A stretch of DNA of 64,000 bases. Origin: Streptococcus porcinus (GTDB lineage Bacteria; Bacillota; Bacilli; Lactobacillales; Streptococcaceae). Below the pieces are notes generated by a model that was not told the origin of the DNA, made no database searches, and was given only the letters and a program-made list of their open reading frames with translations. Each line of letters opens with the position of its first letter. Position 1 is the stretch's first letter. Location: assembly GCF_900475415.1 (NCBI RefSeq), contig NZ_LS483388.1, positions 916,001-980,000 of the forward strand. The letters run 5' to 3'. Shown one piece after another: positions 7,996 to 33,435 of the stretch. Made by a program: the position numbers and the translations under genes.

Positions 7996-8147
7996 TTAAA
8001 AAATATAGGTCCCTAGGTTTAGAAAAACTAAATAAGTATATTAAAAGAAATGGTATTAAAAGAGAAGATATTATTATACTCAAAAACGATGTTTCTTCTA
8101 TAAGCCATGATTGGTACACACTTACATACTGGGAGGATATTAAATGA
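7992..8147 (+). CDS. Small phage protein of unknown function (51 aa)
   Basis: ATG 7992 overlaps the previous stop and is preceded by GAGGAG. The product is basic in its first half (IKKYRSLGLEKLNKYIKRNGIKRED) and ends in a beta-like segment (HDWYTLTYWEDIK). Small proteins ending in a W-x2-x-x-YWED motif recur in streptococcal phage accessory regions; their role is unknown. The stop overlaps the next ATG. Confidence 0.55.
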   Translation: MIKKYRSLGLEKLNKYIKRNGIKREDIIILKNDVSSISHDWYTLTYWEDIK

Positions 8148-8515
8148 ACGAACTAATTAAACCGCTAGCAAAGGTTTTAGATATATCGGCTAGTGAACTA
8201 GAGAGAATAGTAAGCAGTCTGAATGTGAATGCACCACAGATTTATGAGCGGTTGTTGATTGAATATAAATGGTGGAAAGTGTTAGATATTATTTCTTCGA
8301 CTTCGGCAGTTGTTGCATTTGTAGCAATGCTTATATTCGGAATATTAACACTATTCATCTGTGTAGAGGGAACAAAATGGGTAGACGATGCATTAAAAAT
8401 AGTTTGCAAATGGTCTGGGATTATTTTTGTAGCTTCCGGTTTGGTTACAATAATTTGTGTTTCGCTATCAGTAATTCTAGCACCACATATTGATTTAATT
8501 ATGCAACTTAAATAA
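8144..8515 (+). CDS. Phage membrane protein with two transmembrane segments
   Basis: 123 aa. A cytoplasmic N-terminal helical region (about 1-45) is followed by two strongly hydrophobic segments (about 48-72 and 85-112). GGGAGGA precedes the ATG. The function is unknown. It is the last gene of the early accessory operon, and its stop codon overlaps the first base of the tRNA-like element at 8515. Confidence 0.6.
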   Translation: MNELIKPLAKVLDISASELERIVSSLNVNAPQIYERLLIEYKWWKVLDIISSTSAVVAFVAMLIFGILTLFICVEGTKWVDDALKIVCKWSGIIFVASGLVTIICVSLSVILAPHIDLIMQLK

Positions 8516-8556
8516 CCAACAACGGTATCACGAGCGTTCGATTCGCTCGGTTGGTA
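8515..8556 (+). other. tRNA-like minihelix 1 (acceptor stem plus T-arm only)
   Basis: A T-arm GAGCG-TTCGATT-CGCTC lies at 8532-8548. It is followed at once by GGTTGGT (8549-8555), which pairs with ACCAAC(A) at 8515-8521 as a 6-7 bp acceptor stem. Then comes A, the discriminator position, without an encoded CCA. Only ten bases (8522-8531) sit where D and anticodon arms would be. The T-loop TTCGATT matches the tRNA consensus. It sits immediately after the last early gene. Confidence 0.6.
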
Positions 8557-8560
8557 TTAA

Positions 8561-8683
8561 CCGAAAATAAAAAAAGAAAAGAGGTATCTCCTTACATCAA
8601 TACAAATCTAAAGCTGCTTATCGGTTAGCAGTGATTATCCAAGGTTATAAACCTGACAAAATAAAAAAGAAATGAGGTATCTT
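8561..8683 (+). repeat. Imperfect direct repeat around a start-less small reading frame
   Basis: Two near-identical stretches of about 27 bases, A-rich and ending GAGGTATCT, occur at about 8561-8588 and 8655-8683. Between them, bases 8590-8673 are open in one frame (LHQYKSKAAYRLAVIIQGYK, then PDKIKKK and a stop) but lack ATG, GTG or TTG at the right place. This looks like the remnant of a small gene or a duplicated leader. Confidence 0.4.
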
Positions 8684-8703
8684 AACTACTCTGATAAGAC
8701 AAA

Positions 8704-8731
8704 AAAAGAGCCCTGCAAAAGGCCCTTTTGG
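8704..8731 (+). terminator. Intrinsic terminator ending the early operon
   Basis: AAAAGAGCC at 8704-8712 pairs with GGCCCTTTT at 8721-8729 with one mismatch, closing a short loop and running into T residues. It separates the early accessory operon from the DUF1492 regulator gene. Confidence 0.6.
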
Positions 8732-8772
8732 TAAAACTATCTATCATCATTATACCATAAGGAGACTTGATT

Positions 8773-9192
8773 GTGGGGAAAAATCAGACACCAAAAGCAA
8801 ACAGATTTATAAATGATTTAAAGGCCATTCCTAAGCTCATAGAGAGCCTTGAACGCGACTCGAATATAATGAACCGCTCATTAATAAAAAGCCCACAGTG
8901 GAACGATATGAGCGTTTCTGGAGGCGTTAGAAAAACTCAAGAGGATAAAAATATTGATGCTATTGTTAAGACTGATTATTATAGCAAACAAATAGAGGAG
9001 TTGAAACGCAAAAAAGAAAATATGATTAACATAATTATACAGAATACAGGATTGTGTGAAAGTCATGTGTTAATCAAAACAATTGAAAGTGAAGATAGCT
9101 ATCAGGCTATGGAGAAACTTGATATAGGTAACAGAAATAAGTATTTTAAAATATTAAATGATGGCAAAAAAAGTCTAGAATTGATACTTTAA
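8773..9192 (+). CDS. DUF1492-type phage regulator
   Basis: 139 aa from GTG 8773, 8 bases after AAGGAG; the in-frame TTG at 8767 is too close to the ribosome site. IPKLIESLERDS, SLIKSPQWNDM and the YYSKQIEEL coiled region match DUF1492, a family encoded just upstream of late genes in streptococcal phages. Such proteins are thought to act like ArpU/RinA late-transcription activators. The position, last before the head genes, fits that idea. The C-terminus may form a sigma-region-4-like helix-turn-helix, though I cannot show this by eye. Confidence 0.65.
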   Translation: MGKNQTPKANRFINDLKAIPKLIESLERDSNIMNRSLIKSPQWNDMSVSGGVRKTQEDKNIDAIVKTDYYSKQIEELKRKKENMINIIIQNTGLCESHVLIKTIESEDSYQAMEKLDIGNRNKYFKILNDGKKSLELIL

Positions 9193-9343
9193 AATATTAT
9201 ATTTATACAAAATAATACGCATAAATACTTATTTGTATGCTATTATAGTATTATCAAAATAGCAAGAAGAGATAAATATTTTGTCAATGGACTGTTTATT
9301 AGTCGCCAATTTTAACTACGATCAAACTTGTTATTTTGATATG
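9193..9343. promoter_or_regulatory. AT-rich intergenic control region before the late genes
   Basis: No gene is visible. An inverted repeat AATACT (9224-9229) / AGTATT (9247-9252) encloses TATTATAG, a possible -10 region, although no convincing -35 is present. That is what an activator-dependent late promoter would look like. Further on, ATCAAA/TTTGAT (9331-9351 region) forms a small hairpin just before tRNA-like element 2. Confidence 0.35.
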
Positions 9344-9376
9344 TGAGATAAGCAGGTTCGAATCCTGCTATCTCAA
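9344..9376 (+). other. tRNA-like minihelix 2 (acceptor stem plus T-arm only)
   Basis: TGAGATA (9344-9350) and TATCTCA (9369-9375) pair perfectly over 7 bp. They flank a perfect T-arm GCAGG-TTCGAAT-CCTGC (9352-9368), with a single A between the two stems. A discriminator-type A follows and no CCA is encoded. This is exactly the acceptor/T-arm half of a tRNA without D or anticodon arms, a structure known to be a minimal RNase P substrate. It is 33 bases long and not followed by a T tract, so it is not a terminator. Confidence 0.65.
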
Positions 9377-9379
9377 TTA

Positions 9380-9471
9380 GGGAACATAGAGTAGTGATTG
9401 GAAAGGTACTAGAGTTGGCCACTCTTGGCACATTAGATGTCACTTTGTCGGTTCGATTCCGACTGTTCCTA
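9380..9471 (+). tRNA. tRNA-like gene with long variable region, anticodon unclear
   Basis: GGGAACA (9380-9386) pairs with TGTTCCT (9464-9470) as a 7-bp acceptor stem. GTCGG-TTCGATT-CCGAC (9447-9463) is a perfect T-arm, and A9471 is the discriminator; no CCA is encoded. Inside are a D-arm candidate AGTA/TACT with a GG-containing loop and an anticodon-arm candidate AGAG-TTGGCCA-CTCT. The last would give anticodon GGC (Ala), although the long variable region (about 20 bases) is that of class II tRNAs. The mismatch between these signs means a degenerate or non-canonical tRNA. Confidence 0.55.
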
Positions 9472-9561
9472 TAACTCATCTACCGAGTGTAGAAAGAGAT
9501 TGAGTAAGCGGTGCTAATCTACTGTATCGCTTATGGTTTTGAGAGACGCTTGACGTCGTTA

Positions 9562-9585
9562 GTCACCACAATTGGTGGCTTTTTA
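9562..9585 (+). terminator. Intrinsic terminator before the HNH gene
   Basis: GTCACC (9562-9567) pairs with GGTGGC (9574-9579) around loop ACAATT, followed by TTTTT. It would end transcripts that include the tRNA-like elements, which implies that the late head genes need either antitermination or a promoter close to 9585. Confidence 0.65.
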
Positions 9586-9602
9586 TTATGGAGGTAAATG
9601 AA

Positions 9603-9956
9603 ATGACCCCCCCTACATCAAATTTAAGGGCGGACAAAAAAGGTACCCACCGGGTTGCATTTGACAGAAATAAGAGAAAGCTACTCAAGACAGTAAACGT
9701 CTGCGGGATTTGTGGTAAGCCAGTTGATAAGTCGCTTAAGTACCCTCATCCTTTAAGTCCAGCAATAGATCATATCGTTCCCATTGCAAAAGGCGGACAT
9801 CCATCATCAATGGATAACTTACAGCTAACACATTGGCAATGCAATCGGCAGAAGTCTGATAAGCTCTACTCTGATGTCAAACAACAAGACCAAAAGACAG
9901 TTGGCAATAGAAATCTTCCTCAAAGCCGAGACTGGTCGTCATACGCATCTAAATAA
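9603..9956 (+). CDS. Phage HNH endonuclease
   Basis: 117 aa. The zinc ligands CGIC and the later HWQC frame the core DHIVPIAKGGHPSSMDNLQL, followed by CNRQKSDK, a complete HNH motif. Such nucleases are encoded beside the cos site and terminase in siphoviruses and assist DNA packaging with the large terminase. ATG 9603 follows GGAGGT with 7 bases spacing; the ATG at 9588 lies upstream of the ribosome site. The end QSRDWSSYASK is typical for this family. Confidence 0.9.
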   Translation: MTPPTSNLRADKKGTHRVAFDRNKRKLLKTVNVCGICGKPVDKSLKYPHPLSPAIDHIVPIAKGGHPSSMDNLQLTHWQCNRQKSDKLYSDVKQQDQKTVGNRNLPQSRDWSSYASK

Positions 9957-10099: not shown

Positions 10100-10456
10100 A
10101 TGAAAAAGATATGCGTTATATGTCAAAAAGAGTTTGTGCCAGAGACAAACAGAAGTATTTACTGTTCGGAAGAATGCAGAAAACAAGGGCGGTTGAAGAC
10201 TCAGCGTGAATTAATGAAGAAGAAACGCCAACCAAAAAATGTTGAAAAAACAGACTCTCAAAATGCTAACCTAGACAGCGGAAATAGACCAAAGAAAAAG
10301 AGAAACTTGTTACAGCACTACCAGAAACTAAAAAAGGATTTGCTAGCAAATGAAGAGCAGTTCGGTTTCAAGGGTCTTTATTTAGTTGAGGGAATCGATA
10401 TACACGAAGAAAACTTTGAGCAATTAATCATAGAAAAGATTAAGGAGAGAAAATGA
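10100..10456 (+). CDS. Zinc-finger phage protein in the small-terminase position
   Basis: 118 aa. The N-terminus has a four-Cys zinc finger (C-x2-C at residues 5-8, then YCSEEC at about 23-28). The middle is very basic (KKKRQPKNVEK, RPKKKRN) and the C-terminus helical. GGAAAGGGGAG precedes the ATG. In related phages the small terminase gene lies here, but I do not recognise this protein as one. DNA binding at cos is a reasonable guess from the finger and basic region. The stop overlaps the portal ATG. Confidence 0.6.
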   Translation: MKKICVICQKEFVPETNRSIYCSEECRKQGRLKTQRELMKKKRQPKNVEKTDSQNANLDSGNRPKKKRNLLQHYQKLKKDLLANEEQFGFKGLYLVEGIDIHEENFEQLIIEKIKERK

Positions 10457-33077: not shown

Positions 33078-33090
33078 CAGTAAGTTTTAA

Positions 33091-33435
33091 TGGAGCTGGT
33101 GGGAGTCGAACCCACGTCCAAACACCTGCCAACATATTCGTCTACAACCATAGGTTATGTTTTGATTTAACAAGGTAAGGACACATAACTCAAGCCATTA
33201 CCTTGCGAGTCTAAAACTCTCTTTTTAAGGCAGCAGACACTACCTTAAACGTAGCTTGTTATTTTGAGACTTCTAACAGGACACAAGCAATCTTGCAGAA
33301 GTCACGCTAGCTGGTTTTTAGGCAGCTAAAGCGTAAGAGTTTGTATTTTTTGCAGTTATATTTAACTGGCATTTTACATCTGCCGATGGGTCGCAGAACA
33401 TGTCTCATAATGCCTGTCGAATCCGTAACAACCCC
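33091..33435 (-). ncRNA. ssrA: tmRNA (ssrA)
   Basis: The 3' end matches the tmRNA T-arm/acceptor (GACGTGGGTTCGACTCCCAC followed by CAGCTCCA, CCA encoded at 33091-33093). The 5' end begins GGGGTTGTTACGGATTCGAC at 33435. The tag frame at 33318-33353 reads AKNTNSYALAA followed by TAA, the streptococcal form. tmRNA with SmpB rescues stalled ribosomes and tags the partial peptides for proteolysis. tmRNA 3' ends are common phage attachment sites, but here a chromosomal gene and 770 bases separate it from the prophage. Confidence 0.97.

Follow-up and report, generated by a model that had tools for sequence, protein, structure and literature searches.

A prophage of Streptococcus porcinus carries, on both sides of its probable late regulator gene, short RNA elements shaped like the acceptor and T-arm half of a transfer RNA (tRNA). 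The stretch of 64,000 nucleotides (nt) analysed here, called the window (contig NZ_LS483388.1, positions 916,001 to 980,000), contains a Streptococcus prophage. Over positions 8500-9600, phages Javan423 and Javan425, whose listed host is S. porcinus, match the window with 100% identity. The first-pass annotation had reported three tRNA-like elements of two designs around the DUF1492 regulator gene, followed by a terminator, an HNH gene and head genes. All three elements are present where it had placed them, A and B being minihelices and D a class-II-like form with an abnormal anticodon arm, and the order of terminator (9561-9580), HNH and portal genes was found as described; a conserved leader RNA and a uracil signature at the 3' ends of the elements had been missed. 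From sequence and comparison, we consider it somewhat probable that these elements represent an undescribed class of anticodon-less mini tRNA-like processing elements, located at presumed transcript boundaries around the late switch and cut by the host ribonucleases (RNases) P and Z.

Three tRNA-like elements around the late regulator gene

Element A (8515..8556; this and the features of its surroundings lie on the plus strand) pairs ACCAACA (8515-8521) with GGTTGGT (8549-8555) in six pairs and one A.G. A linker of 10 nt (8522-8531, ACGGTATCAC) leads to the T-arm GAGCG-TTCGATT-CGCTC (8532-8548), and the acceptor is followed by the discriminator R73 (A8556) and by U74 (8557). Together with most short forms, A represents a single design of about 42 nt, hereafter mini, that consists of acceptor, GG linker and T-arm and has no anticodon arm. 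With the model R2, built from 26 minis, A scored 55.2 bits (E 2e-11), but it is itself one of these 26 sequences.

Element B (9344..9376, U74 at 9377) is still shorter: an acceptor/T-arm minihelix with a single bulged base, in which the acceptor TGAGATA/TATCTCA and the T-arm GCAGG-TTCGAAT-CCTGC have only this one linker base between them. B was outside the training set of R2, with which it scored 29.1 bits (E 9.4e-5). Its fold had a z-score of -4.8 with none of 200 shuffles equally stable, and among A, B and D folded alone, B alone had the expected form as its best structure.

Element D (9380..9471, U74 at 9472) is a larger, class-II tRNA-like relative with the acceptor GGGAACA/TGTTCCT and the T-arm GTCGG..CCGAC. 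It was called tRNA-Ala(GGC) by ARAGORN and scored 36.1 bits with the Rfam tRNA model (gathering score 29), which makes it the weakest among the 49 tRNA matches of its genome, the next having 52.1 bits. In relatives, the interior of D between acceptor and T-arm measures either 10-18 nt or 60-92 nt, and a D-arm is preserved in the long forms, as is an anticodon-like hairpin (the second fold line for long forms was forced to hold acceptor and T-arm). An anticodon arm with a 7-nt loop is absent from A, B and the minis, and the hairpin of D at this place is abnormal, though ARAGORN reads an anticodon in it.

Element A adjoins the end of the preceding gene, an open reading frame of 123 amino acids (8144..8515, phrog_26340) whose TAA stop (8513-8515) shares a base with the first position of A. 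TAA or TAG stands at the start of all seven distinct A forms, and in 19 rows with a complete element, found with a pattern that itself required TAA/TAG, this stop codon closes an open frame. The mini of L320 (L numbers denote our loci) likewise begins on a stop, a TAG that ends a frame of 234 amino acids, and in L322 and L328 a TGA within the acceptor ends a frame of 91 amino acids. An RNase P cut at base 1 of A would thus fall in or beside the stop codon of the preceding gene. The 5' half of A was also found alone at gene starts, in L011 (1114), L141, L142 and L155, which suggests cassette exchange at A.

The long B interiors of L063 and L132 have a common hairpin with the loop TGCACGCA and stems that are paired but differ; possibly, this hairpin is a cargo RNA.

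Pairing and 3' end signature

In 25 chosen diverse minis, 94.0% of the cells were paired, compared with 55.8% in shuffles, and 101 cells showed double changes, compared with 28.5; none of 500 shuffles reached either value. Double changes were present at 11 of the 12 pairs, which 80 of 500 shuffles reached too. The T-stem (5 bp, with a TTCRANN loop) was paired in 100% of the cells, as is canonical for tRNA. By comparison, the stack of acceptor and T-stem has 11-12 pairs, with an innermost mismatch in most minis, and an elbow is suggested by the T-loop and the linker GG, which would take the part of the D-loop. In the window, all seven acceptor pairs are standard in B and also in D, if one G.U is counted. 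Pairing was similar in 26 mostly streptococcal minis (94.9% vs 64.6% in shuffles), where, the innermost acceptor pair aside, the sole non-Watson-Crick combination was a plus-strand G.U and never A.C, as expected of a plus-strand RNA. Within family A, the T-stems vary by paired changes (GAGCG/CGCTC, GCAGG/CCTGC, GCACG/CGTGC). All these alignments use chosen representatives (26, 15 and 25 sequences), some of them interrelated, such as the ACCCACA forms, and three rows misaligned by MAFFT were excluded from the 26-mini alignment. Since the families A-D may have separate tRNA ancestors, differences between families overstate the change within a lineage.

The linker was YGG in 25 of 31 cases when the pairing procedure did not require GG. 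Two of the six non-GG linkers (L095 and L164) belong to elements that pair better at 75-77 nt, and the other four (L007, L142, L146 and L204) are assumed to reflect a similar false short pairing.

U74 was found in 67 of 69 distinct phage elements and in 24 of 25 host tRNAs, a purine at position 73 in 64 of the 69, and an encoded CCA in none of the 69 phage elements and none of the 25 host tRNAs. The base at -2 is frequently one unable to pair with U74. A U at -1 (42/69 phage elements, 13/25 host tRNAs) is compatible with RNase P cutting at base 1. Downstream uracils were reportedly the subject of work by Pellegrini et al. in 2012. The lack of CCA and a discriminator followed by U would be as expected of RNase Z substrates: passages in the literature describe the tRNAs of Streptococcaceae as CCA-less, with RNase Z cleaving directly after the discriminator (PMC8549757), and the elbow as read by both RNase P and RNase Z (PMC4810234).

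T-arm arrays in streptococcal relatives

The first-pass annotation had raised the question whether the elements are unique to this prophage or unstructured in its relatives. They are neither: 67 Streptococcus phage records have a match to the stretch 9225-9376, which spans the late leader and B (the 60 listed ones carry no annotated feature there), and the elements of relatives are structured, with compensatory change. One to five strict T-arms follow 74 of 81 distinct leaders (one in 13, two in 24, three in 22, four in 6 and five in 9), and 14 of the 15 places found with the leader model R1 in 247 Streptococcus genomes have T-arms behind them, some of these places being R1 training places. 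Both counts were chosen by the leader alone, and the 81-leader set includes loci retrieved by the D motif; the viral scan with the leader motif gave at least the matches listed.

The T-arms are confined to the sense strand. In 76 intervals, which were chosen for holding a T-arm-like string, all 177 strict T-arms were in sense orientation, and the opposite strand had none; the counts for the two strands in the 596 kb outside were 25 and 2. ArpU-family loci of Streptococcus contained a strict T-arm in 14 of 32 cases. The JX01 record has two T-arms and that of vB_Sags-UPM1 three, and the single annotated element in each is a tRNA-Ser.

The arrangement of one element before the regulator gene and two after it, as proposed in the first-pass annotation, holds in the window. 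It is not a general rule, since just 12 of 90 leader loci have A in the 1.1 kb upstream of the leader.

Minis beyond the leader loci

A strict mini pattern gave 152 matches with 40 distinct forms in 2.13 Mb of retrieved loci and none in five shuffles. All 40 forms have purine 73 and U74 in the printed copy, neither of which the pattern required. A laxer pattern gave 60 forms, with U74 in 58 and purine 73 in 57, and again none in shuffles. In a phylum sample of 299 genomes, R2 matched only the genome of the window and 1 of the 298 others; several R2 matches (L318, L320-L323 and L326) have very different sequences and an unchanged design. The covariance model R3, built from 15 minis, brought out the wider class. 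Within the order, it matched genomes in 12 of 74 genera, 18 of 295 genomes in all, and in a class sample 5 of 299, two of these being Streptococcus. Of the 22 R3 places listed outside the training set, U74 is present in 14 of the 18 that could be parsed.

Several of these minis accompany late regulators. L331 and L334, from one family outside that of Streptococcus, have an ArpU-like gene (phrog_248), a promoter-like site, one or two minis, a terminator-like hairpin and a terminase small subunit gene, and we read them as a non-streptococcal copy of the layout of the window (L331:1395-1660 and, on the reverse complement, L334:1380-1800; the second mini and the hairpins were read by eye). In L318 and L332, a mini lies upstream of a phrog_36 gene, and in L333 upstream of a weak ArpU-family match. 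When loci were retrieved by the DUF1492-type protein alone, seven of the nine had upstream sequence. In six of these seven, one or two minis precede the gene by 254-592 nt, always in sense orientation and never on the opposite strand. With the DUF1492 protein of the window as query, L353 was found with a mini, and with the ArpU-like protein of L331, two of three close relatives had one.

Two further observations concern the surroundings of single minis. The L329 mini has a near-copy, L344, 455 kb away in the same genome, and integrase genes lie near L329 and L340, so that the L329, L344 and L340 minis could be attachment sites. In L321 (reverse complement, 1384-1541), two tandem minis follow a gene that by eye is cytosine methyltransferase-like, with no late regulator seen nearby.

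A conserved late leader upstream of a terminator

Between the regulator gene and B lies a conserved late leader RNA of 78 nt (9258..9335), closed by a stem, P1, of 9258-9266 with 9327-9335. A TATTAT at 9249..9254 is the probable -10 element of the late promoter; it was read by eye in the upstream sequences of relatives and is not called by a simple promoter scan. Downstream of D, a structured spacer (9472..9560; the fold of 9472-9585, including the terminator, has a z-score of -2.9) leads to an intrinsic terminator (9561..9585; stem 9561-9580 and T-tract) directly before the late genes.

In 40 leader sequences, P1 showed double changes at two of its nine pairs and one unpaired cell, and the leaders of L208 and L303 have further matched changes in P1 by eye. 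Upstream of the common TATTAT-like stretch, relatives have several unrelated promoter types: median pairwise identity, over 60 distinct cases, was 0.92 in the initial 24 nt of the leader and 0.44 between positions -60 and -13. A terminator-like hairpin follows 74 of the 81 distinct leaders. A conserved structured leader behind a putative promoter and upstream of the terminator that precedes the late genes is the arrangement of a put-type antitermination leader. Because an intrinsic terminator stands directly before the late genes, and because the leader stays the same whichever promoter type precedes it, we infer that this leader acts as an antitermination or attenuation RNA.

Proposed processing at the late switch

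The best-supported reading of these elements is that host RNase P and RNase Z process them, which agrees with what varies as well as with what is retained. The parts retained (the acceptor/T-arm stack, the elbow GG, purine 73, U74 and the lack of CCA) are known recognition features of the two enzymes. In the proposed mechanism, acceptor and T-arm would form a tRNA-like stack and the linker GG would dock into the T-loop to give the elbow. Host RNase P would cut the 5' end, and host RNase Z would cut after the discriminator, with the following U probably helping. A cut at A, where the upstream reading frame ends, would split the early messenger RNA (mRNA) from the regulator mRNA. Excision of B, D and their relatives from the late leader would detach the 78-nt leader RNA, and the late mRNA would gain a new 5' end that opens with the structured segment and the terminator hairpin. 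Transcription, cleavage, the order of the cuts and an effect on the early/late ratio are inferred from the sequence, as is the view that processing separates the mRNAs and matters to the switch; position suggests that processing may also govern the early-late switch. The interpretation in the first-pass annotation is partly supported, by the occurrence of structured elements in relatives, the retained recognition parts, the conserved promoter-like site and leader upstream, and the location on the sense strand. That the elements are partly dispensable speaks against a required control system.

More broadly, the mini-tRNA may be a general, unrecognised module of phages in the order of Streptococcus, a view that we hold as plausible and short of probable. 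The mini would be a processing hinge on both sides of the late regulator, partly overlapping the preceding stop codon, and the tRNA-maturation capacity of the host would set the separation and stabilisation of the early, late and regulator RNAs; the mini would be accompanied by a new leader antiterminator. A search by title and start of abstract in the open-licence literature, a scope outside which most subscription papers and preprints lie, found no description of such elements. If the proposal is true, the early-late transition of these phages would be tied to the most basic RNA enzymes of the host, and the elements would be among the smallest natural tRNA mimics known to us. They would allow the requirements of RNase P and RNase Z to be tested on natural elements, and their covariance model could help to annotate intergenic phage RNA that bears no label; they would also pose a directly testable question on the expression and maturation of a late operon behind a terminator in Gram-positive temperate phages.

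Several observations weigh against processing at these elements. The best fold of D alone is not a cloverleaf (z-score -1.1, 33 of 200 shuffles equally stable), and A folded alone keeps its T-arm while its 3' acceptor strand pairs downstream instead (z-score -2.3, 4 of 200 shuffles equally stable). Because neither folds alone into a tRNA-like form, the case for A and D comes from comparison. Within the mini design, the innermost acceptor pair is non-standard in 18 of 25 minis, including A, and standard in 7, the acceptor begins with A in 19 of 25 minis and with G in only 3, and GG was a requirement of the strict pattern as well as a feature of the covariance models by construction. The distribution is also uneven. 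Upstream A, as noted, is restricted to a minority of leader loci, 7 of the 81 leaders have no intact T-arm, and L303 consists of a leader and a terminator-like stretch (by eye) with no tRNA-like element; because L303 has this pair alone, leader/terminator and tRNA-like elements are separable. R2 matched only 13 of 197 Streptococcus genomes, and strict T-arms were present in 0 of 27 ArpU-family loci of other genera. L361, the seventh of the DUF1492-type loci with upstream sequence, has no mini, nor has L354, found with the DUF1492 protein of the window, nor L351, although its ArpU-like protein shares 99% identity with the L350 one. U74 is missing from L347-L349, which belong to the class sample, and integrases or apparent host genes adjoin some R3 matches (L329, L340, L339, L343). 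The arrays also include ordinary-looking tRNAs (Ser GCT, Trp CCA and Lys TTT). Finally, cutting alone would be no switch, because RNase P is always present.

Alternative explanations

An unlikely reading, though the one among the alternatives that we take most seriously, is that the processed minis are themselves the product: CCA-tailed, tRNA-shaped RNAs that act in trans, for example as decoys against tRNA-targeting defences or as substrates of enzymes that recognise acceptor and T-arm only, with the untranslated late leader as no more than a strong expression site. It shares all the support for processing and agrees with the number of T-arms (0 to 5), with acceptor-to-T-arm distances from 1 to about 100 nt, the long pairings being partly chance, and with the ordinary-looking tRNAs in the same arrays. 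G3.U70 is the alanine identity element, and the B form of many phages, TGGGACG/CGTCTCA with a one-base bulge, contains this pair. However, other B forms have not retained G3.U70, nor have A, C and D, a lone A at a gene end suits processing better than a product array, and stability and charging of the minis have to be assumed.

A further, improbable explanation takes the elements for tRNA genes that serve translation in the phage, with internal deletion having led to the decay of many. Full tRNA-like forms do occur in the same arrays, with ARAGORN calls in 25 of 85 intervals, and a long form of B has a canonical D-arm sequence, as the long forms of D have a D-arm and an anticodon-like hairpin. 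Decay would not retain 94% pairing with double changes, nor U74; the minis have no anticodon, and their design recurs in other families with very different sequences. This explanation is therefore already weakened.

We consider it very improbable that leader and terminator are the entire control device, acting by antitermination as in the precedents HK022 put and lambda Q/tR', with the tRNA-like elements as stable filler. The constancy of the leader under several promoter types (0.92 vs 0.44), covariation at two of nine P1 pairs, the terminator-like hairpin in 74 of 81 cases and L303 all speak for such a device, yet filler needs neither purine 73, U74 nor matched acceptors, and A occurs without the leader. 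A leader-terminator device is compatible with processing of the minis and does not exclude it.

Among the seven leaders without an intact T-arm, six (L040, L082, L084, L108, L126 and L128) are apparent T-loop chimeras by eye and one has a changed base. As these six look joined inside the T-loop, this short repeated sequence is probably a recombination site, which explains the mosaic arrays and not the paired stems. The further step, that the elements are mainly DNA-level recombination joints or integration sites, deserves hardly any credence: the chimeras, the lone 5' halves of A at gene starts and the integrase genes near L329 and L340 fit it, but the T-arms are confined to one strand, the stems have G.U without A.C (innermost acceptor pair excepted), none of the 35 host tRNA sequences recovered agrees with the 3' halves of the six element types compared (20/24 at best), and T-loop recombination would presumably break stems rather than compensate them.

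Four narrower candidates were rejected: the remnant of a host-tRNA attachment site, as there was no 3' end match among the 35 host tRNA sequences; a DNA-level cruciform or packaging signal, on the strand bias and on stems that, the innermost acceptor pair aside, contain G.U and no A.C; an alanine-charging minihelix, as only some B forms have G3.U70; and a known Rfam family including GOLLD and ROOL, as only the tRNA family matches D, with transfer-messenger RNA (tmRNA) below its gathering score.

Comparison with known systems

Organelle transcripts are punctuated by tRNAs. The layout proposed here is alike, as it is to RNase P cuts in bacterial operon mRNAs, in that tRNA-shaped elements would lie between units of one transcript and host RNase P and RNase Z are the expected enzymes; strand and position are as expected, with presumed co-transcription. 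It differs in that the minis have no anticodon arm and no D-stem, are phage-borne, surround a late regulator and have predicted rather than known cleavage. C4 and M3 RNAs are likewise phage RNAs handed to host RNase P; these are single RNAs of other phages, the antisense C4 RNA belonging to P1/P7, whereas here a boundary element of mini design is repeated. Processing of phage C4 RNA, M3 RNA and operon mRNAs by bacterial RNase P is mentioned in PMC11143913. GOLLD and ROOL are described as non-coding RNAs of phages and prophages, often near tRNA islands, with GOLLD rising during lysis (PMC12286853). They are large multi-domain RNAs, and the elements of the window show no match to either.

Substrates of the pATSer type have the acceptor/T-arm design, and element B is nearly the same acceptor/T-stem hairpin with one bulge. 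Those substrates are synthetic, whereas the elements of the window are natural and most minis add the GG linker. mascRNA is a eukaryotic tRNA-like RNA, and other tRNA-like structures form virus 3' ends, with a pseudoknot and terminal CCA unlike the minis. PMC12710915 mentions pATSer among the model hairpin substrates of RNase P, and turnip yellow mosaic virus (TYMV) and tobacco mosaic virus (TMV) among the plant viruses with tRNA-like structures.

Neighbouring genes

The DUF1492 gene between A and B (8773..9192; the GTG start is our choice, with an in-frame TTG at 8767) is the probable late regulator gene, with matches to PF07374 (30.2 bits, cut-off 21.5) and phrog_36. A hairpin between A and this gene (8704-8729) has a terminator score on the minus strand only. 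Behind the terminator, the HNH endonuclease gene (9588..9956, from its open reading frame and profile matches) is the first late gene, and the portal gene also lies downstream on this side in the window. The protein encoded at 10100-10456 (phrog_2862) scored above the Pfam cut-off for Ecl1 (31.4 vs 28.3 bits), which is described as a TORC1 inhibitor; the match is probably a coincidence of a zinc-binding motif. A tmRNA gene at 33088-33435 on the minus strand (189 bits with Rfam, tag AKNTNSYALAA) lies, by our arithmetic, about 1.3 kb past the expected end of a collinear prophage of Javan423 length.

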